In this document: positions 5,837 through 57,214 of the stretch, piece by piece | Layout of the letters: every line of letters starts with the position of its first letter | Numbering within the stretch: position 1 is the first letter of the stretch | Origin: an uncultured Prevotellaceae bacterium | GTDB lineage: Bacteria; Bacteroidota; Bacteroidia; Bacteroidales; Bacteroidaceae | Assembly: GCA_900318115.1 (NCBI GenBank) | Contig: ONJJ01000004.1 | Location: forward strand, 48,062-112,061 | Reading direction: 5' to 3' | DNA: 64,000 nt | The notes under the pieces: generated by a model | The model's database searches: none | What the model was told of the DNA's origin: nothing | What the model saw: only the letters and a program-made list of their open reading frames with translations | Position numbers and translations under genes: made by a program

Positions 5837-5852
5837 TTGCAAGTCGAATTTT

Positions 5853-5882
5853 CCAATTGTAAGATTGTAAGATTGTAAGATT
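5853..5882 (-). repeat. Octamer array (AATCTTAC)n
   Basis: Three tandem copies of the octamer AATCTTAC (read on the minus strand) ending in AATTGG lie between the U32 and MBOAT genes. The same array occurs at 13567-13612 and 16200-16245. Confidence 0.8.
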
Positions 5883-9854: not shown

Positions 9855-11483
9855 TTATTTCAGGGCTTCCTGCTGGCGGTTTTCTTGGTAGTGGTCGCCT
9901 ACGAGCTGGAGGAAGCGGCGGCGGAATTTGCGGAGGAGACGGGGATGGGTGGCGGTGATGTCGAGGTGCTGGGAGGGGTCTGCCTGGAGGTCGTAGAGGG
10001 TGTAGTCGGAGACTACTCCGAGCTCGTTGCCTGTGGCGTTGCGCCGGGCTCCTCGATAGGGAGGGATGAGGGCGTAGCGGCCGCATCGGTAGGCGAGTCG
10101 TCCGGCGGCCTCGACGATCATCTCGCGGCGCGCACGGCGGCTCTTGCCGAGGAAGGTGGAGAGGAGGTTCTCGGAGTCGAGTCCTGCGGGCACGGGCTGG
10201 CGGAGCATGGCGGCGAGGGAGGCGAGGAGGTCTTGCTGGGAGACGAGGGCGTCGGAGACGAGCGGGCGGATGTGGCCGCGCCAGTAGATGAAGAAAGGCA
10301 CGCGCGTGCCGGCGTCGAAGAGGCTGTACTTGCCTCCGCGGAGGCCTCCCATGGGGTCGTGGAGGGGTGCGGATTCGCGGGCTCCGTCCTGGTAGCCGTC
10401 GTCGAGGACGGGTCCGTTGTCGGAGCTGAAGATGATGATGGTGTTGTCGAGGAGTCCTTCGCGCTCGAGTTTCTGGATGAGCTGTCCCACGCACCAGTCT
10501 GCCTCGAGGATGACGTCGCCGCGCGGTCCGAGGGCTGTCCTGCCGGCGAAGCGCGGGTCAGGGACGCGTGGCACGTGGGGCTGGTGGAGTCCGTAGTAGA
10601 GGAAGAAGGGCTGGTGCTTGTTGGCGTCGATGAAGGCGTTGCAACGGTCGAGGAAATACTGCGCCATCTGGTCGTCCTGCCATCGTGCGGCGTGGCCTCC
10701 TCGCATGAATCCTATGCGTCCGATGCCGTTGATGACGGTGTTGTCGTGGCCGTGGGAGGAGGGCATGCGTACGAGCTCGGGATTGTCGCGCAGGGTGGGT
10801 TCTCCGGGGAAGTTGTGTTCGTAGCTGACTTCGATGGGGTCGTCGGGGTCGAGTCCTACGACGCGTCCGTTCTCGACATATACGGTGGGCACTCGGTCCA
10901 CGGTGGCCGCGATGATGCACGAGTAGTCGAATCCTATCTCTCGCGCTCCGGGGCGGATGACGTCGTTCCAGTTGATCTTGCCGCGGCCCATGCCGAGGTG
11001 CCACTTGCCGACGGCGGCGGTGGCGTAGCCTGCGTGCTGGAACATGCGCGGGAGGGTGAACTGCTGTGGATCGACGATGAGTGGTGCGTCGCCAGGTAGG
11101 ATGTGGGCGTCCTTGTTCTTCCAGGGGTACATGCCGGTGAAGAGTCCGTAGCGGCTGGGTGTGCTGGTGGCAGAGGTGGCGTGGCCGTCGGTGAAGCAAA
11201 CGCCTCCGCGGGCGAGGCGGTCGATGTTGGGTGTGCGGATGGTGGTCTGGCCGTAGGCGCTGACGTCGCCGTAGCCGAGGTCATCGGCGAGGATGAGTAC
11301 GACGTTCGGGCGCTGGGAGTCCTGCGCGGCAGCGGCTGCGGCGGGGGAGGAGGGAGTTTCGCGCAAATATGCGCGACACCCAACCGAAGGTGAGAGGGGG
11401 CAGCCGGCGGCGAGTGCGAGTGCCGGGGGGCAGCCGGCGGCGAGTGCGAGTGCCGCGAGGGTCAATGTTTTCTGGTGTTCCAT
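9855..11483 (-). CDS. Secreted sulfatase, Ser-type (S-x-P-S-R)
   Basis: 542 aa. The core starts with NVVLILADDLGYGD (metal Asp residues), and STPSRYGLFTG holds Ser107, the residue converted to formylglycine. A Ser-type site needs an anaerobic sulfatase-maturating radical-SAM enzyme; none is in the window. GKWHLG and FSSDNGP are also family blocks. The first ~55 residues are odd: a 10-residue unit ALALAAGCPP/L is doubled (a 30-bp tandem repeat), followed by RAYLRETPSSP, which translates palindromic element B. The start overlaps the upstream sialidase-like gene by 22 bases, so the two are probably translated together and act on the same sulfated glycan. Confidence 0.9.
   Translation of the reverse strand: MEHQKTLTLAALALAAGCPPALALAAGCPLSPSVGCRAYLRETPSSPAAAAAAQDSQRPNVVLILADDLGYGDVSAYGQTTIRTPNIDRLARGGVCFTDGHATSATSTPSRYGLFTGMYPWKNKDAHILPGDAPLIVDPQQFTLPRMFQHAGYATAAVGKWHLGMGRGKINWNDVIRPGAREIGFDYSCIIAATVDRVPTVYVENGRVVGLDPDDPIEVSYEHNFPGEPTLRDNPELVRMPSSHGHDNTVINGIGRIGFMRGGHAARWQDDQMAQYFLDRCNAFIDANKHQPFFLYYGLHQPHVPRVPDPRFAGRTALGPRGDVILEADWCVGQLIQKLEREGLLDNTIIIFSSDNGPVLDDGYQDGARESAPLHDPMGGLRGGKYSLFDAGTRVPFFIYWRGHIRPLVSDALVSQQDLLASLAAMLRQPVPAGLDSENLLSTFLGKSRRARREMIVEAAGRLAYRCGRYALIPPYRGARRNATGNELGVVSDYTLYDLQADPSQHLDITATHPRLLRKFRRRFLQLVGDHYQENRQQEALK
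11359..11390. repeat. Palindromic element B, copy in the sulfatase gene
   Basis: A 7-bp stem (TCGCGCA/TGCGCGA, loop AATA, 11359-11376) is followed by CACCCAACCGAAGG, the reverse complement of the flank seen in the U32 copy. It lies between the signal peptide and the catalytic domain. Confidence 0.7.
11398..11457. repeat. 30-bp tandem duplication in the sulfatase signal peptide
   Basis: Two adjacent copies of a 30-bp unit beginning GGCAGCCGGCGGCGAGTGCG encode the doubled ALALAAGCPP/ALALAAGCPL. Confidence 0.8.
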
Positions 11484-13399
11484 AGTTTGTGGATTGTGCC
11501 GTCGGGGCGGCGGGTGATGACGATGCCTGCGGACAGGGATACCACGGGTCGTCCGCTGAGGTCAAAGGACGTTGAGGATGCCTGGATGGGAGGATTGGAG
11601 GAGGAGCGGGATGGGTTGTTGAGGGATTTGTAGTCGTGGAGTGTGCCGGGGGACTTGACGTCGTGAATGCCGTCGGGCAGGGGCTGCAGGCGGAGTTCCA
11701 TCCATGTCCATGGCCGCAGTTGGTCCACGTCGGGGATGGTCTCGTGGAGGACTGTGCCGTCGCGGTTGTCGGTGACGTCGATGGCGGCTGCCATGCGCGC
11801 TCCTATGGGTGGCTGCTGGCATCCGAGTGCGCTCCACGGTATGGCGGCCTCGATGACGTAGTTGGAGCTGAATGTTCCGGCGACGAAGTGGATGGCAAAG
11901 TCTTCTCCTGTGATGCGCCTCCATGCGCGGCTCTGTCCTCGCTGTGCGAGGTGGGTGCCAGCAGCCCGGAGTTGTAGTTTGTAGCTGGTGGGCTGCGGCG
12001 CTGTCTCGGTGGAGCCTTCGACGTCGAGGAGCAGGGTGACGAGGTCGGGGTTGTTGTTGCCTGTGGCGAGGGTCTTGTCATAGACTCGCGCGAGAAAGTA
12101 AAGGGAGTCGAGGTCATAGGCGAAGTCGGCGATGACGCGTGTGCCGCAGTCGGTGCCGAGCAGGATCTGTGCGGCGTCGTTGCGGGTGTAGCCCTCGCCG
12201 TTGGTCAGTCGTCCGTCCACAGCGGGATGTCCGTAAGCAGCTTGCAGGAGTCGTGTGGGGTATCCCTTGATCATCTCTATCTTCCCGTTGATGCCCGACA
12301 CGGCGACGACGACTCCTGTGTCGATGACAGCGAGTGAGTTCCAGAGTCCCTGGGGGTTGTGCTGCGCCTCGCCGAAGGGCGTGCTGACGGCGCGGAAGTC
12401 GCGTGCCTCGTCGTTGCCCACGGCCACTCGCATCTGTATCTTGCCGTCGTTGCCGTAGGGCGACTGGTGGCTGATGACGGTCTCTCCTGTGGGCAGCTGT
12501 CGGAGGTAGGGTGCTCCTCCAGTGGCGACGGGGCAGAAGTCGAAGTTGAGCGAGCAGTCGCGGTTCTTGTCTGTGGCATTGACCCAGTAGTTCTGCCAGT
12601 TGTTCTGGAGTGTGGTGCGTACGGTGGTGGGGAGGAAGTCGTTGTATCCCCAACCGTTGTCCTCGATGGCGACAACTATCTCCTGGGTGCGCTGGAGGAG
12701 TATGGGCACGGGCATGCCGTCGCGGTAGCCTTTCCGGTAGCTTATTTTCTGTGCCTTGGTCCATGTCTGTCCGCCGTCGAAGCTGCGGCAGAGGGAAATC
12801 TGTTGGTCGCCGTTGGTGGTGTAGGGTCCTTCGTCGGCGAAGTAGAGGTGGAGTTCGCCGGAGGGCAGTTGCAGGAAGCTGGGTTCCCAGCAGCCGTCGT
12901 GGAAGGTGTAGCTGGCGTCGTTGACGAAGATCTCGTCGCTCCAGGAGCGCCCGTTGTCGGTGCTGCGCTTGCAGCGGATGCCGAAGCGGCGGTCCTCGGT
13001 GTAGGGCTCGGAGGGGCGTGGATTGTAGCCCACGACGATGGTGCCGTCGTGGAGCTGGATGAGGTCGGGCACGCAGTTGGGGGTGTTGTTGGTGTTGGTG
13101 ACGATGCGCTTGGCGGCGGTCCAGGTCTTGCCGAGGTTGGAGCTGAAGGCGATGTCGATGCCGCTGTGCTCGCAGGCGGCCATCAGGCGCCCGTCCTGCA
13201 GCTGGATGATGCGCGCGTAGCCGCCGCTGGCGAAGACGGTGCGCCGGGTGGTGGTGTCCCAGAAGATGCGGGGATAGGGATAGGGGGACACGGAGGCGGC
13301 GCGCAGGGGGAAGGAGGAGAAGAGGAAGAGGAGGAAGAAGAGGGGGAGGTGCCGCAATAAAATTGCGGCGGAAAAAACGGGACGGAGGGAGGTTTTCAT
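11462..13399 (-). CDS. Sialidase-superfamily exoenzyme with CBM9-like C-terminal domain
   Basis: 645 aa, secreted. A signal peptide (residues 1-34) is followed by a six-bladed propeller with BNR/Asp-box-like motifs (SSNLGKTWTAA, STDNGRSWSD, SFDGGQTWTKA). Residues ~400-580 resemble a CBM9/DOMON-like sandwich (ADFAYDLDSLYFLARVYD, EAAIPWSALG). The end, FDLSGRPVVSLSAGIVITRR, is a short T9SS-like tail. The superfamily includes true sialidases and exo-enzymes of other specificity; the full Arg triad was not verified, so sialic acid as substrate is only one possibility. The signal peptide (LRPVFSAAILLRHLPL) is encoded by palindromic element A. The stop overlaps the sulfatase start. Confidence 0.8.
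   Translation of the reverse strand: MKTSLRPVFSAAILLRHLPLFFLLFLFSSFPLRAASVSPYPYPRIFWDTTTRRTVFASGGYARIIQLQDGRLMAACEHSGIDIAFSSNLGKTWTAAKRIVTNTNNTPNCVPDLIQLHDGTIVVGYNPRPSEPYTEDRRFGIRCKRSTDNGRSWSDEIFVNDASYTFHDGCWEPSFLQLPSGELHLYFADEGPYTTNGDQQISLCRSFDGGQTWTKAQKISYRKGYRDGMPVPILLQRTQEIVVAIEDNGWGYNDFLPTTVRTTLQNNWQNYWVNATDKNRDCSLNFDFCPVATGGAPYLRQLPTGETVISHQSPYGNDGKIQMRVAVGNDEARDFRAVSTPFGEAQHNPQGLWNSLAVIDTGVVVAVSGINGKIEMIKGYPTRLLQAAYGHPAVDGRLTNGEGYTRNDAAQILLGTDCGTRVIADFAYDLDSLYFLARVYDKTLATGNNNPDLVTLLLDVEGSTETAPQPTSYKLQLRAAGTHLAQRGQSRAWRRITGEDFAIHFVAGTFSSNYVIEAAIPWSALGCQQPPIGARMAAAIDVTDNRDGTVLHETIPDVDQLRPWTWMELRLQPLPDGIHDVKSPGTLHDYKSLNNPSRSSSNPPIQASSTSFDLSGRPVVSLSAGIVITRRPDGTIHKLWNTRKH
13341..13387. repeat. 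Palindromic element A, copy 1 (in a signal peptide)
   Basis: A stem GCCGCAAT/ATTGCGGC with loop AAA (13351-13369) is followed by A-rich DNA and ACGGGACGGAGG. It encodes residues ~4-20 of the sialidase-like protein. A near-identical copy lies at 13460-13507 and a diverged one at 37381-37424. Confidence 0.85.
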
Positions 13400-13459
13400 A
13401 AATTTAGGGAATTAGGATTTTTAAAGTTCGAGGATTAAGAGGGAGGGGAAAGAAGCGGG

Positions 13460-13507
13460 AGGGGGAGGTGCCGCAATAAAATTGCGGCGAAAAAAACGGG
13501 ACGGAGG
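13460..13507. repeat. Palindromic element A, copy 2 (leader region)
   Basis: This copy matches copy 1 over about 47 bases with one difference. It lies in the gap before the sialidase-like gene, 119 bases from copy 1, and not inside a gene. Confidence 0.85.
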
Positions 13508-13566: not shown

Positions 13567-13612
13567 CAATCTTACAATCTTACAATCTTACAATTGGTTT
13601 TTTCAGAAGGGA
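13567..13612. repeat. 46-bp direct repeat with octamer array, downstream of tamA
   Basis: Three AATCTTAC octamers, then AATTGG, TTTTTT and CAGAAGGGA. The right end includes the tamA stop codon and its last residues. It differs at one base from 16200-16245, in the same orientation. Confidence 0.85.
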
Positions 13613-16199: not shown

Positions 16200-16245
16200 C
16201 AATCTTACAATCTTACAATCTTACAATTGGTATTTTCAGAAGGGA
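16200..16245. repeat. 46-bp direct repeat with octamer array, upstream of tamA
   Basis: Same as 13567-13612 apart from one base, in the same orientation, just upstream of the tamA start. A further partial octamer copy follows at 16245-16258. Together the two copies bracket the whole tamA gene. Confidence 0.85.
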
Positions 16246-23710: not shown

Positions 23711-23791
23711 TATTTCACAAGGGGGGAAGACTCTTATTATTTCACAAGGGGGGAAGACCCTTATTATTTCACAGGGGGGGAAGACTCTAAT
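23711..23791. repeat. 27-bp tandem repeat, three copies
   Basis: Three adjacent 27-bp units starting TATTTCACAAGGGGGGAAGA lie between the convergent FAD and OmpA-family genes. No stem or T-run is evident. Confidence 0.85.
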
Positions 23792-27881: not shown

Positions 27882-29030
27882 ATGAAGTCAAAAATATACC
27901 GCCTGCTAACCTCTGCATGGCTGCTCGTTGTTTGCTTGTTGCCAGCTAATGCCGACGATTGGATGGGACGCTTACCCGATGATGCCTACGTCTGCCAGCT
28001 CTCCATTCCAGGCACCCACGACAGTGTCACAGGCCACGGATTCGACGGTTTTCTCGCTTCAATGGGTGATGATTATGCCCGCACCCAGGAAAAAACTCTT
28101 AGCGAGCAGTGGGAAAGTGGCATTCGCGCTTTCGACTTACGTCCTTGTGTCGATGGCACCACGCTGCGCATCAACCACGGCATCATCCAGACACAGTTAA
28201 CGTTGGAAGAAGCCTTGGGAACGTTGTGCGAACTGCTGGACGAACATCCCACCGAAGCAGCCATCGTCATTATCCGCCACGAGACGGACGGCGACGACGG
28301 CAGCGGCGAGTGGAACAAACTGATGAAAGCGCTGTTGGCGCGCGAGGATGTCAAGGAGCATGCCATCAATTTCTCGCCTGTCTTGAAAGTGCATCAAGTA
28401 CGTGGCAAATTGCTCATCCTCAGCCGCGACGAATATGCCTCCACACCCACGGGTGGTTTCATCCGTAACTGGGGCCATAGCTCCAAATTCGCAGATCAGA
28501 AAAACGGGCGCATCATAGGGCGCAGCGCACAAGCAGTGTGCTACATTCAGGACTTCTACGACCTCTCAGCCGAAGGTGCCAAGGAGGTTAAGCGCCAGAA
28601 TATCCTCACCCTGCTCGAACGAATGATGGGACTGAAGAACAACACTCGCATCTGGTGCATTAACCACACTTCGGGCTACTCTTTGACCACCTCTTTCTTC
28701 GGCAGCGACCTGTCCACCAGCGATGGTTATCGCGACAACGCTGCTACACAGAACCAGGCTGTCATCGACTATCTGGCAGAACACCAGGGTACCACAGGTA
28801 TCATCATGATGGACTTTGCCGCAGTAGATCGCTCCGGGGACTACGACGTGAAAGGGTTGGCGCTGACCAAGGCACTCATTGAGAACAATTTCAGCGTCTT
28901 TGCATCCGTTGGTTCCGTTTCTTCCCAGAAGTCATCTGCCCCCACCGCATATACCATCAGTGGCCGTCGGACGATTCCGACGACCACTGGTCTCTATATT
29001 ATTCAAGGACGTAAAGTCCTCGTGAAATAA
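27882..29030 (+). CDS. Secreted phosphatidylinositol-specific phospholipase C-like protein
   Basis: 382 aa with a signal peptide (LLVVCLLPANA). The PI-PLC X-box is clear: QLSIPGTHDSVTGHG with the first catalytic His, and TLRINHGI with the second; AIVIIRHE follows. Bacterial enzymes of this type cleave phosphatidylinositol or GPI anchors without metal. The C-terminus carries the same T9SS-like tail as the preceding GH43 (YTISGRRTI...LYIIQGRKVLVK). It is probably in one transcript with the GH43 gene; why a phospholipase goes with an arabinanase is not obvious. It converges on the GH97 gene with 16 bases between the stops. Confidence 0.85.
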   Translation: MKSKIYRLLTSAWLLVVCLLPANADDWMGRLPDDAYVCQLSIPGTHDSVTGHGFDGFLASMGDDYARTQEKTLSEQWESGIRAFDLRPCVDGTTLRINHGIIQTQLTLEEALGTLCELLDEHPTEAAIVIIRHETDGDDGSGEWNKLMKALLAREDVKEHAINFSPVLKVHQVRGKLLILSRDEYASTPTGGFIRNWGHSSKFADQKNGRIIGRSAQAVCYIQDFYDLSAEGAKEVKRQNILTLLERMMGLKNNTRIWCINHTSGYSLTTSFFGSDLSTSDGYRDNAATQNQAVIDYLAEHQGTTGIIMMDFAAVDRSGDYDVKGLALTKALIENNFSVFASVGSVSSQKSSAPTAYTISGRRTIPTTTGLYIIQGRKVLVK

Positions 29031-31243: not shown

Positions 31244-31277
31244 CGCCACCAAACGACAACTATCATAGGTACATACG

Positions 31278-31466
31278 CGTGAGGTGCGTCCGAACCTTCC
31301 ATCCTTCAGGAGGAAGACGGACCAAGAGGGAAGCAGGTGAGAGTCCTGCACAGTCCCGCTGCTGTGAGCTCCATCATCGGATAGGCCAGAGAAAGCCACT
31401 GGACACCTGCAAGACAGGCGACTGGGAAGGTGCCTATTTCCGGGAGCAAGTCAGAAGACCTGCCGC
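31278..31466 (+). ncRNA. Cobalamin (B12) riboswitch
   Basis: The conserved core is plain: AAGAGGGAAGCAGGTGAGAG and GTCCTGCACAGTCCCGCTGC, then TGTGA. The 3' half has GCCACTGG and ends with AAGTCAGAAGACCTGCC, the B12-box end of the aptamer. A short hairpin (AACTG/CAGTT, about 31496-31511) between the aptamer and the first gene may be part of the expression platform. Binding of cobalamin should switch off the six-gene operon that follows. Confidence 0.95.
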
Positions 31467-31560
31467 ACGATTTGCTGTAATAGATACTCCCAGATAACTG
31501 CGAGGACAGTTGGAAACAGATCAAAACCTAATGTATAACTCAAAACAAAATCAAAGCAAA

Positions 31561-37368: not shown

Positions 37369-38517
37369 ATGAATCACCCTCTTCGTCCCGTTTTTTATGT
37401 TGCAATTTTATTGCAACTCTCCCTCCTCCTCGCCTCCTGCGCCCAAGGACGGAAGCCCGCTTCCTCCCTCGCACCCTCCCCCCTGCGCTACGCTTCCAAC
37501 CTCACCTGTGAACGTGGCGAGGGCTACAGCCTTTGGACCCTGCGCAACCCCTGGGACACCACTGCTGTGCTCCACCGCTACCTCCTCCATCCGGACACCC
37601 TCTCTGAGCCCGACCTGTCCACCTTCCAGTTCGCCTTTTCCATCATCAGGACCCCTGTCCGATCCGCGGGCGTTGCCACAGCTGTCCACTGCGGACTACT
37701 GGATGAGTTGGGCGTTGCAGACCGCATCGCAGGCGTCTGCGAGAAGGAATACATCGACTTACCGGCAGTAAATGAGGGACTGTCAGCCGGACGCATTGCC
37801 GACTTCGGCAACGGTATGAACCCCAACATCGAGCGCATCATGGATGTGGCACCAGACGTACTGCTACTGACGCCCTTCGAACACAGCGGTGGCTATGGCC
37901 GTGTGGAACGTCTGGGAATACCCATCATCGAATGCGCCGAATACATGGAAGTTTCCCCTTTGGCACGTGCGGAATGGATCCGATTCTATGCAGAACTTTT
38001 TGGAACCGAACTGCGCGCCGATAGTATCTTCCGTGCCGTGGAACAGAATTACCTCACTCTCAAGGCCAAGGCTTCTACGGCCTCTTCCTGTCCCACCCTG
38101 CTGACCGAACAGCTCTACGGTGGTCAGTGGTTCGTACCCTGCGGTCAGAGCACCATGGGCATCATGTTCTCCGACGCTGGCGCCGATTACCTCTTCCATG
38201 ACCGTCCCGGCAGTGGCAGCACAGCTCTCTCCTTTGAGACCGTGCTCGATGAGGCACAAGATGCAGACGTTTGGCTTCTGAAGTTCAACAGTCAGCAACC
38301 ACTGACCTACCGCCAGTTGGCTGCCGATTACCAACCCTACACCCGCTTCCGCGCCTTCCGTGAGCATCAAATCTTCGGTTGCGACCTGGCCCACAACCAC
38401 TTCTACGAGGAGACTCCCTTCCATCCCGACCGTCTCCTCCGCGATTTCATTATCCTCTTCCACCCGGAGCTCCTGCCGGGCGAGCAGAGCATCTACTACA
38501 AACCTCTTGCAGAATAG
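37369..38517 (+). CDS. btuF: BtuF-like ABC-transporter substrate-binding lipoprotein
   Basis: 382 aa from ATG 37369, two bases after the receptor stop. The signal peptide MNHPLRPVFYVAILLQLSLL ends at lipobox LASC and is encoded by palindromic element A. The remainder fits the FecB/BtuF periplasmic-binding fold: AVHCGLLDELGVADRIAG, MNPNIERIMDVAPDVLLLTPFE and WLLKFNSQ. It should deliver cobalamin (less likely an iron complex) to the permease encoded next. An alternative in-frame ATG at 37354 overlaps the receptor gene. Confidence 0.85.
   Translation: MNHPLRPVFYVAILLQLSLLLASCAQGRKPASSLAPSPLRYASNLTCERGEGYSLWTLRNPWDTTAVLHRYLLHPDTLSEPDLSTFQFAFSIIRTPVRSAGVATAVHCGLLDELGVADRIAGVCEKEYIDLPAVNEGLSAGRIADFGNGMNPNIERIMDVAPDVLLLTPFEHSGGYGRVERLGIPIIECAEYMEVSPLARAEWIRFYAELFGTELRADSIFRAVEQNYLTLKAKASTASSCPTLLTEQLYGGQWFVPCGQSTMGIMFSDAGADYLFHDRPGSGSTALSFETVLDEAQDADVWLLKFNSQQPLTYRQLAADYQPYTRFRAFREHQIFGCDLAHNHFYEETPFHPDRLLRDFIILFHPELLPGEQSIYYKPLAE
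37381..37424. repeat. Palindromic element A, copy 3 (in the BtuF-like signal peptide)
   Basis: Opposite orientation to copies 1 and 2. The stem is GTTGCAAT/ATTGCAAC with loop TTT (37399-37417), preceded by CGTCCCGTTTTTTA. Compared with copies 1 and 2, two stem pairs changed from C-G to T-A on both sides. Confidence 0.8.
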
Positions 38518-54390: not shown

Positions 54391-56397
54391 ATGAAAAAGC
54401 TGCTCTTCATCCTCTGCACACTGTGTACCCTCCCCGCCGCCGCCCAGACCTTCAGCCTCAGCCTGAAGCAGCCTGGCAACGATGCCAGTGCCATCGAGCT
54501 CAAGGCCGACGGTCAGCACCTCGTGGCCGCCGACGGACAGAAGCTGCCCCTGGACATCACCATCGCACGCACGGAGCTGCAAGGCGGATTCAGCCAGCTG
54601 ACACTGACCCTCCACGCCCGAGAGCGCGCGTACTATCATATAGGAGTCAGCCTGCCCACCGAGTTCCGCACGGACGACTGCGACTTCTACCTCCCGGGCT
54701 TCTGGTACCACAAGAACCTGCGTTCGCCCCGCGAGGCACCCTCCTTCCACACCTCGCGCAGCTGGAACGTCCGTGAGGACCGACTGAGCTCGCCACTGAC
54801 CGCCGTCTACGACGCCACCACCAAGCGGGGCATCAGCGTGCTCCGACAGCTGCCGGCCCAGGGCGAGGACTGCCTGACCACCCACAGCGAGGGCGAAGTC
54901 ATCCTCGCCGGACGTACCACCGTGGGATTTGTGGGCTTCGACGGCGAGAGCGGCAAGGCCAAGCTGACCTTCGGCTTCCCCTACGAGGAGACGCCCCGCC
55001 GATACATCCGCAAACTCACCCTCGCGCCCGCCATCACCGCCTTCGCCCGTATGGATGACGGCGAGACACAGATCCTCAGCTGGCTCGTACGCACCTGCGA
55101 GGCAGAGGACTTCGGAACCTTCGTCAGCTCCACCTGGCAGCACTGCGTGGACCGCCTGGCCCCCAAGCCCCTGAAGCCCCGCTACACCCCCAGCCAGGTG
55201 AAAGAGCAGCTCGCCAACTACTTCCGCATGGCCTACGTGGACCGCTACGACATCAAATACCACTCCGGCCACACCCTCCGCTGCGACGACTGCAAACCCT
55301 TCCCCTCGGCACAGCTGGGATTCTGCGGACGCACTATCCTCAATGCCTTCAACGCCCTCGAGTGGGGCGAGCAGACCGGCGAAAAGCTCTTCGTGGACCA
55401 GGCACATGCCATCCTCGCCAGCTACCTCGCACACGGACTCACCGAAGGCGGATACTTCAAGGACGAACTGCGACTGGATCAGCCCCTGCCCGCCGACCGC
55501 GACATCGTCCACAGCATACGCCAGCAGAGCGAAGGCGTCTACGCCGTGTTCCACTACCTCAACTACGAACGCCGCCACGGACGCCAGCACCGTGACTGGG
55601 AACAGGCCCTGCGCCGACTCCTGGACCGCATGCTCCAGCTGCAGAAACCCGACGGCAGCTTCCCCCGCAAGTACCGCGACGACCACACCGACGTCGATGC
55701 CTCAGGAGGCAGCACACCCAGCGCCACATCCACACTCGTAATGGCCTATAAGTACTTCAAGGACAAACGCTACCTCGAGGCTGCCAAGCGCACCGTGGAC
55801 TACCTCGAAACCCACATCATCGCGCCCTCGGACTATTTCTCCAGCACCCTCGATGCCAACTGCGAGGACAAGGAAGCGGCCATCAGCGCCGTCACGGCCA
55901 CCTACTACCTGGCCATGGTCACCAAGAAAGCCGAGCGCCAGCACTACGTAGACCTCTGCCGGCGAGCCACCTACTTCGCCTGCACCTGGTACTACCTCTG
56001 GGACGTCCCCTTCGCACAGGGACAGATGCTCGGCGACCTCGGATTCCAGAGCCGCGGATGGGGCAACGTCAGTGTGGAGAACAACCACGTCGACGTCTTC
56101 ATCTTCGAACTCGCACACATCGCACGCTGGCTGTCCGCGCAGACAGGAGAACAGCGCTTCGCACTACTCGCCGAACTCGCCGAATCCAGCATGAACCAGC
56201 TGCTGCCCACACCCCAGCGACTCTGCGGCATCGGAGTGCCAGGATTCTACCCCGAAGTCGTTCAGCACACCACCTGGGACTACGGGCGCAACGGCAAGGG
56301 ATTCTACAACGACATCTTCGCTCCAGGATGGACCATCGCATCGCTCTGGGAACTCTACTCCCCGCGTCGCACCGCCGACTTCCTGGAAATGAAATAA
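54391..56397 (+). CDS. Secreted six-hairpin (alpha/alpha) glycosidase-like protein
   Basis: 668 aa from ATG 54391, where the signal peptide starts (KLLFILCTLCTLPAAAQ). An N-terminal beta-rich part (~20-290) is followed by an all-helical part with Trp/Tyr/His-rich hairpins (YFRMAYVDRYDIKYHSGH, LQKPDGSFPRKYRD, HTDVDASGGSTPSATSTL, YYLWDVPFAQGQM, NNHVDVFIFELAHIARW). This arrangement is seen in six-hairpin glycosidases and polysaccharide lyases. I do not recognise the family or substrate. Its position near GH43 and DUF4965-GH2 genes suggests plant or host glycan breakdown. Confidence 0.7.
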   Translation: MKKLLFILCTLCTLPAAAQTFSLSLKQPGNDASAIELKADGQHLVAADGQKLPLDITIARTELQGGFSQLTLTLHARERAYYHIGVSLPTEFRTDDCDFYLPGFWYHKNLRSPREAPSFHTSRSWNVREDRLSSPLTAVYDATTKRGISVLRQLPAQGEDCLTTHSEGEVILAGRTTVGFVGFDGESGKAKLTFGFPYEETPRRYIRKLTLAPAITAFARMDDGETQILSWLVRTCEAEDFGTFVSSTWQHCVDRLAPKPLKPRYTPSQVKEQLANYFRMAYVDRYDIKYHSGHTLRCDDCKPFPSAQLGFCGRTILNAFNALEWGEQTGEKLFVDQAHAILASYLAHGLTEGGYFKDELRLDQPLPADRDIVHSIRQQSEGVYAVFHYLNYERRHGRQHRDWEQALRRLLDRMLQLQKPDGSFPRKYRDDHTDVDASGGSTPSATSTLVMAYKYFKDKRYLEAAKRTVDYLETHIIAPSDYFSSTLDANCEDKEAAISAVTATYYLAMVTKKAERQHYVDLCRRATYFACTWYYLWDVPFAQGQMLGDLGFQSRGWGNVSVENNHVDVFIFELAHIARWLSAQTGEQRFALLAELAESSMNQLLPTPQRLCGIGVPGFYPEVVQHTTWDYGRNGKGFYNDIFAPGWTIASLWELYSPRRTADFLEMK

Positions 56398-56398
56398 C

Positions 56399-56510
56399 CC
56401 CCATACAGAACCACAAATCATCAGATGCTCCAGCGCAGAAAACCCCATACAGAACCACAAATCATCAGAAGCTTCAGCGTAGCAATCCCCATACAGAACC
56501 ACAAATCATA
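56399..56510. repeat. 44-bp direct repeat, three copies
   Basis: Units start at 56399, 56443 and 56487 with CCCCATACAGAACCACAAAT. The 20-odd bases between these cores resemble each other (CAGATGCTCCAGCGC versus CAGAAGCTTCAGCGT), so this is a degenerate tandem repeat and not an array with unique spacers. Confidence 0.8.
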
Positions 56511-56642
56511 TGTTGTTTTAGTTAGTTAGTAATAATGTAATCGGTTGCCTTTAGAAAGAGACTAAGGAACCACAAACACAGAGATTAACCTTTATAAGCG
56601 GGCCATCAATCCCGCAGAAAACCAGACATGCCATGAGCAAAG

Positions 56643-56899: not shown

Positions 56900-56938
56900 C
56901 CTGAACCACCTCCCCTACCCTCCTCGCCCCCTTTGCAT

Positions 56939-57057
56939 GCAAAACAGAATTTCAAAAACCTTGCTAACCTTGCTATTTTTGTTAAAAAACCATAATTCTT
57001 TTTACATAAATTAACTTTATTAGCAAGGTTAGCAAGGTTTTTGAAATTCTGTTTTGC
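56939..57057. repeat. Perfect 37-bp inverted repeat
   Basis: The left arm (56939-56975, starting GCAAAACAGAATTTC) and the right arm (57021-57057) are exact reverse complements, 45 bases apart. Each arm holds a 9-base tandem (GCAAGGTTA GCAAGGTTT). The enclosed 45 bases are very AT-rich and hold no gene. Confidence 0.95.
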
Positions 57058-57214
57058 AAAATCATGCCGAAGACTTCTTGGACGACCAAGCGGCAAAGCC
57101 GAGCGAGCAATGTTTTCGGAGAAAAAAGGGAAACAAACAAATGTTTTTTGCTCTATTTTTGCCCCTACCCAAACTTTTTTCCTTGCATTTTACGTCAGAA
57201 TCAGAACTTTTGCA

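Follow-up and report, generated by a model that had tools for sequence, protein, structure and literature searches.

The 64,000-nt stretch of DNA analyzed here (the window), from an uncultured Prevotellaceae bacterium, encodes a sialidase-like protein and a BtuF-like periplasmic-binding lipoprotein that belong to different Pfam families (BNR_2 and Peripla_BP_2, respectively) and begin with MKTSLRPVFSAAILLRHL and MNHPLRPVFYVAILLQL. An initial annotation placed one hairpin unit at three sites, in the signal peptides of these two proteins and in the leader of the first gene, and all three copies are present, beyond chance expectation. The relevant features are the following.

11462..13399, minus strand: sialidase-like protein, 645 aa, Pfam BNR_2, start MKTSLRPVFSAAILLRHLPLFFLLFLF
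13351..13384, minus strand: element copy 1 (34-bp core), within the signal peptide of the sialidase-like protein, composed of CGTCCCGTTTTTTCC and the stem GCCGCAAT/ATTGCGGC with the loop TTT
13470..13503, minus strand: element copy 2, in the leader of the sialidase-like gene, 70 nt upstream of the start
37369..38517, plus strand: BtuF-like periplasmic-binding lipoprotein, 382 aa, Pfam Peripla_BP_2, start MNHPLRPVFYVAILLQLSLLLASC
37384..37417, plus strand: element copy 3, within the lipoprotein signal peptide of the BtuF-like protein, stem GTTGCAAT/ATTGCAAC

For both GCAATTTTATTGC and CGTCCCGTTTTTT, the window holds three occurrences if one mismatch is tolerated, against expectations of 0.02 and 0.05, and none of 100 shuffles reached three. 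Copy 3 differs from the other two by the change of two stem pairs from C-G to T-A on both arms, as had been annotated. It was also described as inverted, which is true relative to the window, although all three copies lie on the sense strand of their own genes. The resemblance between the two encoded peptides, LRPVFSAAILL and LRPVFYVAILL, is real as well, with the correction that two residues, not one, separate the common parts (LRPVF-x-x-AILL). Copies 1 and 2, which are 119 bp apart, head to tail, and match at 96% over 52 nt, thus beyond the 34-nt unit, look like a local duplication; copy 3 pairs with these two as inverted repeats (73% over 63 nt, 78% over 49 nt). A cobalamin riboswitch at 31265-31481 on the plus strand precedes the region containing the BtuF-like lipoprotein gene.

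The repeat unit is shorter than the roughly 45 nt first proposed: between unrelated loci, it spans about 34 bp and consists of CGTCCCGT, a short pyrimidine run, an 8-bp stem and a 3-nt loop. The consensus layout is 5'-CGTCCCGTYTYTTYY-[8-bp stem]-TYT-[8-bp stem]-3', in which the tag CGTC is followed by CCGT, a pyrimidine-rich run and the 8-bp hairpin, with a gap of 11 nt between CGTC and the stem. In a 6-copy alignment, the tag is CGTC in five copies and TGTC in one. Two unrelated loci of one genome (L094 and L095 of G011) are identical at 34 of 34 nt, a stretch that starts with CGTC and ends where the stem ends; on the right, their flanks diverge immediately, and on the left, a partial match (CGCGA, one mismatch, T) precedes the tag, so that this pair does not define a sharp left end. 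Another pair, from two genomes (L031 and L124), shows one mismatch in 34 nt and differs in both flanks, and the bases 3' of the stem differ within each pair. A shorter form, e.g., GTCCTGTTTGTTGCGACTCTGTCGCAAC, is found in other genera and in some copies from the home genus. The sense frames of the consensus are free of stop codons, and one of them reads as the hydrophobic peptide RPVLFVAILSQL.

RNA folding of three copies yields the same hairpin with a 3-nt loop, at -6.8 to -11 kcal/mol and a z-score of about -3. In a plain MAFFT alignment of six copies, both arms have changed at four of the eight pairs. Among 53 copies, 7 of the 8 pairs are double-changed, with 75 double-change cells and 97.6% of the cells paired, a level reached by none of 500 shuffles, in an alignment that was fitted to the structure, which favors this result. 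Stem pair 1 is G-C in 39 of the 51 cells with letters, and stem pair 2 is C-G in 26 and U-A in 23 of the 53 copies.

The initial annotation named a lack of further copies as contrary evidence; there are many more copies elsewhere, recovered with both covariance models and patterns. A DNA search of the own genome adds three copies at E<0.01 to those in the window. Across 139 genomes of the genus, an exact pattern finds six copies in the own genome and two in a relative (G088), and the reversed control pattern has no match. We built one covariance model from six copies (R1) and a second one from 53 copies (R2); copy 1, a training copy of both, scores 72.2 and 68.1 bits, respectively, and another window match, at 28907-28943 (R2, 13.4 bits), is taken as chance. 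R1 has matches in 60 of the 139 genomes at E<=0.1, where about 14 genomes are expected by chance, and in 32 at E<=1e-3. At least 20 R1 matches each are found in the own genome (G000), G088 and G106, and at least 17 of those in G000 have E<1e-3 among the matches listed; the copy numbers per genome given here for the genus (R1) and the family (R2) are lower bounds, and the genomes are incomplete drafts with crude gene calls. At the level of the family, counting the own genome and genus, R2 matches 109 of 399 genomes from 19 of 30 genera at E<=1e-3, mostly by single and weak matches, many of which lie near E 1e-3 and may be due to chance; some genomes of other genera contain several copies, e.g., at least 11 in G273 and at least 7 in G284. 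At the level of the order, 13 of 393 genomes are matched at E<=1e-5, the own genome included, with 13 matches in G856.

In the collections genome_contigs and viral_contigs, the first exact pattern, with GCAATTTTATTGC, has no match. A degenerate pattern finds four stretches in genome_contigs, all in Bacteroidales or Bacteroidaceae MAGs, one of them from goat omasum, and a slightly wider pattern finds one stretch in viral_contigs. A 96-kb IMG/VR contig matches the element pattern on the minus strand at L174:1812-1844, with the LRPVLFVAILSQ frame.

A copy was counted as a signal-peptide copy if the start codon preceded the hairpin by 4 to 30 codons and the encoded protein had 200 aa or more; in-gene rows, three of which were restored by hand, and two second-frame readings were left out. 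This gives 41 rows that represent 39 distinct copies, and the mature parts of the proteins fall into 19 BLASTP groups, two of them doubtful (L038 and L116). The hosts thus amount to 17 groups by BLASTP and about 15 kinds by Pfam, and are not all unrelated to each other, because GH43 and alpha-galactosidase each account for two of the BLASTP groups. The enzymes among them include rhamnogalacturonan (RG) lyase, DPP4, GH88, GH43, GH2, alpha-galactosidases, arabinofuranosidase and 3-keto-disaccharide hydrolase; the other hosts include PorV, the BtuF-like protein, several lipoproteins and a CobD-like protein, in which the element forms the first membrane segment rather than a signal peptide, this being a membrane protein. 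The frame (R)PVLxVAILSQL, with the peptide body RPVLxVAILSQL, is used in 37 of the 41 rows and other frames in 4. Stem pairs 2 and 3 are both T-A, encoding Val and Gln, in 33 of the 39 signal-peptide copies vs 16 of 51 non-coding copies (Fisher p 5e-7, with orthologous copies counted separately); since the C-G form would bring arginine into the hydrophobic stretch, this preference points to selection on the peptide.

We consider it highly probable that the element is a dispersed palindromic repeat, similar to REPs and Rickettsia palindromic elements (RPEs), that has been copied between loci and repeatedly exapted as a signal peptide. The original idea of a copied palindrome that can be read as an export signal is thus supported: we infer movement between loci from the copies themselves, and an export function of the element peptides from their sequence, their Sec- or lipobox-like character having been judged by eye. 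Copies could arise by transposition, strand switching or gene conversion at single-stranded hairpins, and most of them would be lost, with survivors mainly where the gene tolerates them, namely, in leaders, signal peptides and variable loops. A signal peptide requires no more than a charged start, a hydrophobic stretch and a cleavage site, and because these requirements are so few, the frame RPVLFVAILSQL can assume the role of the hydrophobic core. A copy located after the start codon in the hydrophobic frame could then provide a Sec or lipoprotein signal peptide with its core, replacing the old one. Two reasons for the persistence of the paired arms are conceivable: copying may proceed through the hairpin form, or the hairpin may have a role in the mRNA. 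Much of the spread is old, given that non-homologous copies within a genome differ on average at 9.7 of 34 positions; between genomes, the corresponding value for the 88 copies compared is 10.4, and the greater likeness within genomes (permutation p 0.006) speaks for copying.

Comparison of orthologues reveals a patchy distribution of the element. A homologue of the BtuF-like protein is encoded in 131 of the 139 genomes; in the 24 N-termini viewed, from 30 loci, the element is present in three (G000, G088 and, with one stem pair lost, G028), 20 look unrelated by eye, and one (G035) possibly contains a decayed copy. Among 16 sialidase-like N-termini viewed, two contain the element (G000 and G088), 12 do not and two are unreadable. 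The pattern named at the outset as contrary evidence, residues retained in orthologues while the DNA diverges, is therefore mostly absent, most of the BtuF-like and sialidase N-termini looking unrelated. For DPP4, 14 N-termini were found in 30 loci, of which 8 carry the element or its short form and 6, including that of the near relative G088, lack a recognizable copy. In the DPP4 of L205, a Ser/Ala/Lys-rich linker at residues about 360-405 splits the alignments with many orthologues and may be another site filled by a repeat.

The lipoprotein encoded beside DPP4 provides the clearest case. Among 30 orthologues, 8 have the hairpin with at least 7 of 8 pairs, 2 have a similar peptide with 4 or 5 pairs, 5 have a plain transmembrane start, and about 11 have a different repeat, PSLTGGVWGW or PSLIGRAGG (by eye), with an intact 8-bp palindrome in only one of these. 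Within this one family, the element is read in two frames, as VAILSQ (G006 and others) vs CRDSIAT or CRDFIAT (G025 and G019, more distant homologues at 59% identity), and hence a single inherited string of residues cannot explain the family. That a second repeat occupies the same signal peptides in other species goes beyond the initial annotation: CCCTCCCT..AGGGAGGG was seen by eye in signal peptides of this lipoprotein and of DPP4 (N-termini L274, L275, L278, L280-L282, L285, L293 and L294; also L211 and L218).

A search for clean empty sites at the GltD, BtuF-like and DPP4 loci viewed yielded no insertion ends and no target duplication. A 34-bp insertion would shift the reading frame unless compensated. 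In a loop of GltD, read in 23 of 33 loci, the long or short element is present in 12 of the 23, three of these 12 loci having been chosen as element matches; elsewhere, the loop holds other short repeats, and plain sequence of equal length in G020 corresponds to the element in G088. Because the element stands for a loop of the same length, the GltD case looks like replacement rather than insertion. GltD here is a glutamate-synthase-like small subunit, the loop comprises residues about 212-230 (L239-L268, L041, L044 and L050), and its fillers differ by species: the element, TTCAATG runs, GAAAATTG runs or a CCGCCGG palindrome.

Beyond what had been annotated, copies also occupy leaders and, read in other frames, the interior of proteins, mostly in the sense orientation. 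We classified 129 of 151 matches (stem >=7, duplicates removed) with a simple codon-bias gene caller, and 88 of these 129 entered the pairwise comparison given above. The signal peptide or N-terminus accounts for 39 sense copies and 0 antisense, positions deeper in genes for 31 and 2, and the space between codirectional genes for 30 and 10; the remaining copies lie between convergent genes (7), between divergent genes (5) or at an edge (5). When each gene family contributes a single count, sense and antisense copies stand at 20:0 for N-terminal, 15:2 for deep and 25:6 for codirectional intergenic copies (binomial p 2e-6, 0.002 and 0.0009, respectively), the first ratio being partly built in because a signal peptide has to be read in sense. 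In-protein copies are read in three sense frames, AAILSQ, RDSIAT and LPFYG. Leader copies are located at a median of 28 nt from the start codon and 94 nt from the upstream stop, and 18 of 25 lie closer to the downstream start than to the upstream stop, with p 0.04 by the sign test and 0.08 by the Wilcoxon test. The close pairs noted each lie on one strand (the window pair, L116 7419/7525, L099 2450/2546, G094:C16 and G090:C92; no systematic count).

Our tentative suggestion is that the element might be a dual-use module, acting in leaders as an mRNA hairpin close to the start and, where it directly follows the start codon, as a hairpin and a signal peptide at once. If so, selection at both levels would keep the arms paired and the peptide hydrophobic, genes of this genus would gain or swap export signals by receiving the repeat, and there would be competition among several palindromic repeats for the same signal-peptide sites. 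Another explanation, which we consider unlikely, is that the element is a cis-acting RNA element, that is, an mRNA hairpin near the start to which a protein or an sRNA perhaps binds, with the signal-peptide reading being a by-product of the position next to the start codon. The sense bias among intergenic and deep copies and the proximity of leader copies to start codons are compatible with such a role, as is the preservation of pairing while the peptide changes, e.g., in DPP4, where ATT to ACT (I to T) is accompanied by CTA to CTG. However, the sense bias could be caused solely by the GGAGG-like runs that antisense copies would bring into C/T-rich leaders, and the genes downstream of leader copies, which we take to be SmpB-, Dxr-, MBL-hydrolase- and ABC-F-like, have no common function by eye. 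The uneven occurrence of the element between orthologues also argues against an RNA element, and so does Rfam, where, at the curated score, no family matches the window copies or nine other copy-bearing loci. It is possible that the element is an operator for a transcription factor, although the asymmetry of the conserved tag and the copies deep in genes argue against this.

Shuffling of signal peptides between genes by recombination, with the palindrome as a passenger, would account for pairs such as L092/L087 that are alike beyond the stem, into the leucine run. This explanation is very improbable because the same unit is found in leaders and, in three frames, inside proteins, which largely refutes it, and in the pairs L094/L095 and L031/L124, the common block stops at the foot of the stem. 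Chance or convergence of hydrophobic codons, which could be invoked given that leucine-rich signal peptides in C/T-rich DNA resemble each other, is scarcely credible in the face of the shuffle controls, the reversed-pattern control, the covariation of the arms and the 34/34 identity at unrelated loci. By inspection, an intrinsic terminator does not fit, the T-run preceding the hairpin in the sense orientation and an A-run following it in the other orientation; DUS, DGR hairpins and HIP1 were set aside as identities of the element on general knowledge.

The dispersed, exapted repeat that we favor resembles several known systems, in particular, the CGTC-tagged REPs (Di Nocera et al. 2013, PMC3733652), a class that counts Rickettsia RPE-4 and RPE-6 among its members and is reported from several phyla, Bacteroidetes being one of them. 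Judging from the parts of that report available to us, the element has in common with these REPs a CGTC/TGTC tag at one unpaired end (CCTC is also allowed there), a stem of 8 pairs (8 or 9 bp in the REPs), a small size (34 bp vs 20-40), copies inside ORFs and no associated transposase. Unlike those REPs, the element lacks A-T in the first and second stem pairs and the CCA tail after the stem, its loop has 3 nt rather than 4-5 nt, and its close pairs noted, which were not counted systematically, are head to tail, whereas the REPs mainly form head-to-head dimers. Furthermore, REPs of P. entomophila and S. wittichi are described in the same source as located near the ends of upstream genes, in contrast to the leader copies of the element, which lie near gene starts. 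With two features shared (tag and stem length) and four not, we do not file the element as a CGTC-tagged REP, although it works like them.

The comparison with Rickettsia palindromic elements made in the initial annotation is right in kind: as far as the consulted parts of the sources go, these are also palindromic repeats found in frame inside many unrelated proteins and between genes (PMC3733652, PMC2229807, PMC10969869). Compared by description, the element is shorter than the 105-146 bp of the Rickettsia elements (PMC2229807) and is concentrated in signal peptides and leaders. A 2024 review of MITEs discusses RPE fusions, and the term signal peptide is absent from it. In enterobacteria, the relevant cases in the consulted parts of two papers are YPO1552 and, more weakly, YPO2495 for the 168-bp YPAL/RU-2, and YE2643 for RU-1f (Delihas 2007, PMC2759123; PMC2229807); for YPAL/RU-2 and RU-1, the idea thus applies to one or a few proteins, compared with 17 BLASTP groups for the element. 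A literature search, with most subscription papers outside its scope, found no report of this element family or of repeat-built signal peptides at such scale. As far as the consulted parts of these papers go, the occurrence of palindromes in coding DNA and the derivation of a signal peptide from a repeat are already in print.

The GTAG REPs and REPINs mobilized by RAYTs are similarly short palindromic repeats with an unpaired tag; relative to the portions of the sources consulted (PMC3116915, PMC2817692), the element differs in that its tag is CGTC rather than GTAG and that no tie to a Y1 transposase was found. A RAYT is unsupported as the mover: of 10 element-rich genomes, 4 have a clear Y1_Tnp (E<1e-8), genomes with and without Y1 do not differ in copy number (30 vs 109 genomes, p 0.19), and none of four Y1 loci, one of them from an element-rich genome, has a copy within 1.5 kb on each side. 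These negative results are weakened by the incompleteness of the genomes.

Signal peptides diverge fast, and their origin is rarely traceable. Here, one identifiable DNA repeat appears to have supplied signal peptides to glycosidases, a lyase, a peptidase, PorV and binding lipoproteins. Because orthologues with and without the element can be compared, the birth and replacement of export signals become directly testable, and copied palindromes are linked to the secretome of polysaccharide-degrading gut bacteria.

Several further repeats were observed. In a subgroup of copies (L081, L086, L138, L099, L047 and L046), the stem is mostly TCGCGGAT/ATCCGCGA and the DNA on the 3' side is alike, resembling by eye, in several genomes, the 3' end of a single gene in antisense, so that this subgroup is possibly a conserved end element. 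The window itself contains tandem CAATCTTA repeats that end in CAATTGG, at 5847-5882, 13567-13597 and 16200-16245, one of them inverted, as well as a 44-nt tandem repeat in three copies (56396-56527), a 48-bp inverted repeat (56938-57058), an exact 30-bp duplication (11396-11455) and a 27-bp tandem repeat (23711-23791).
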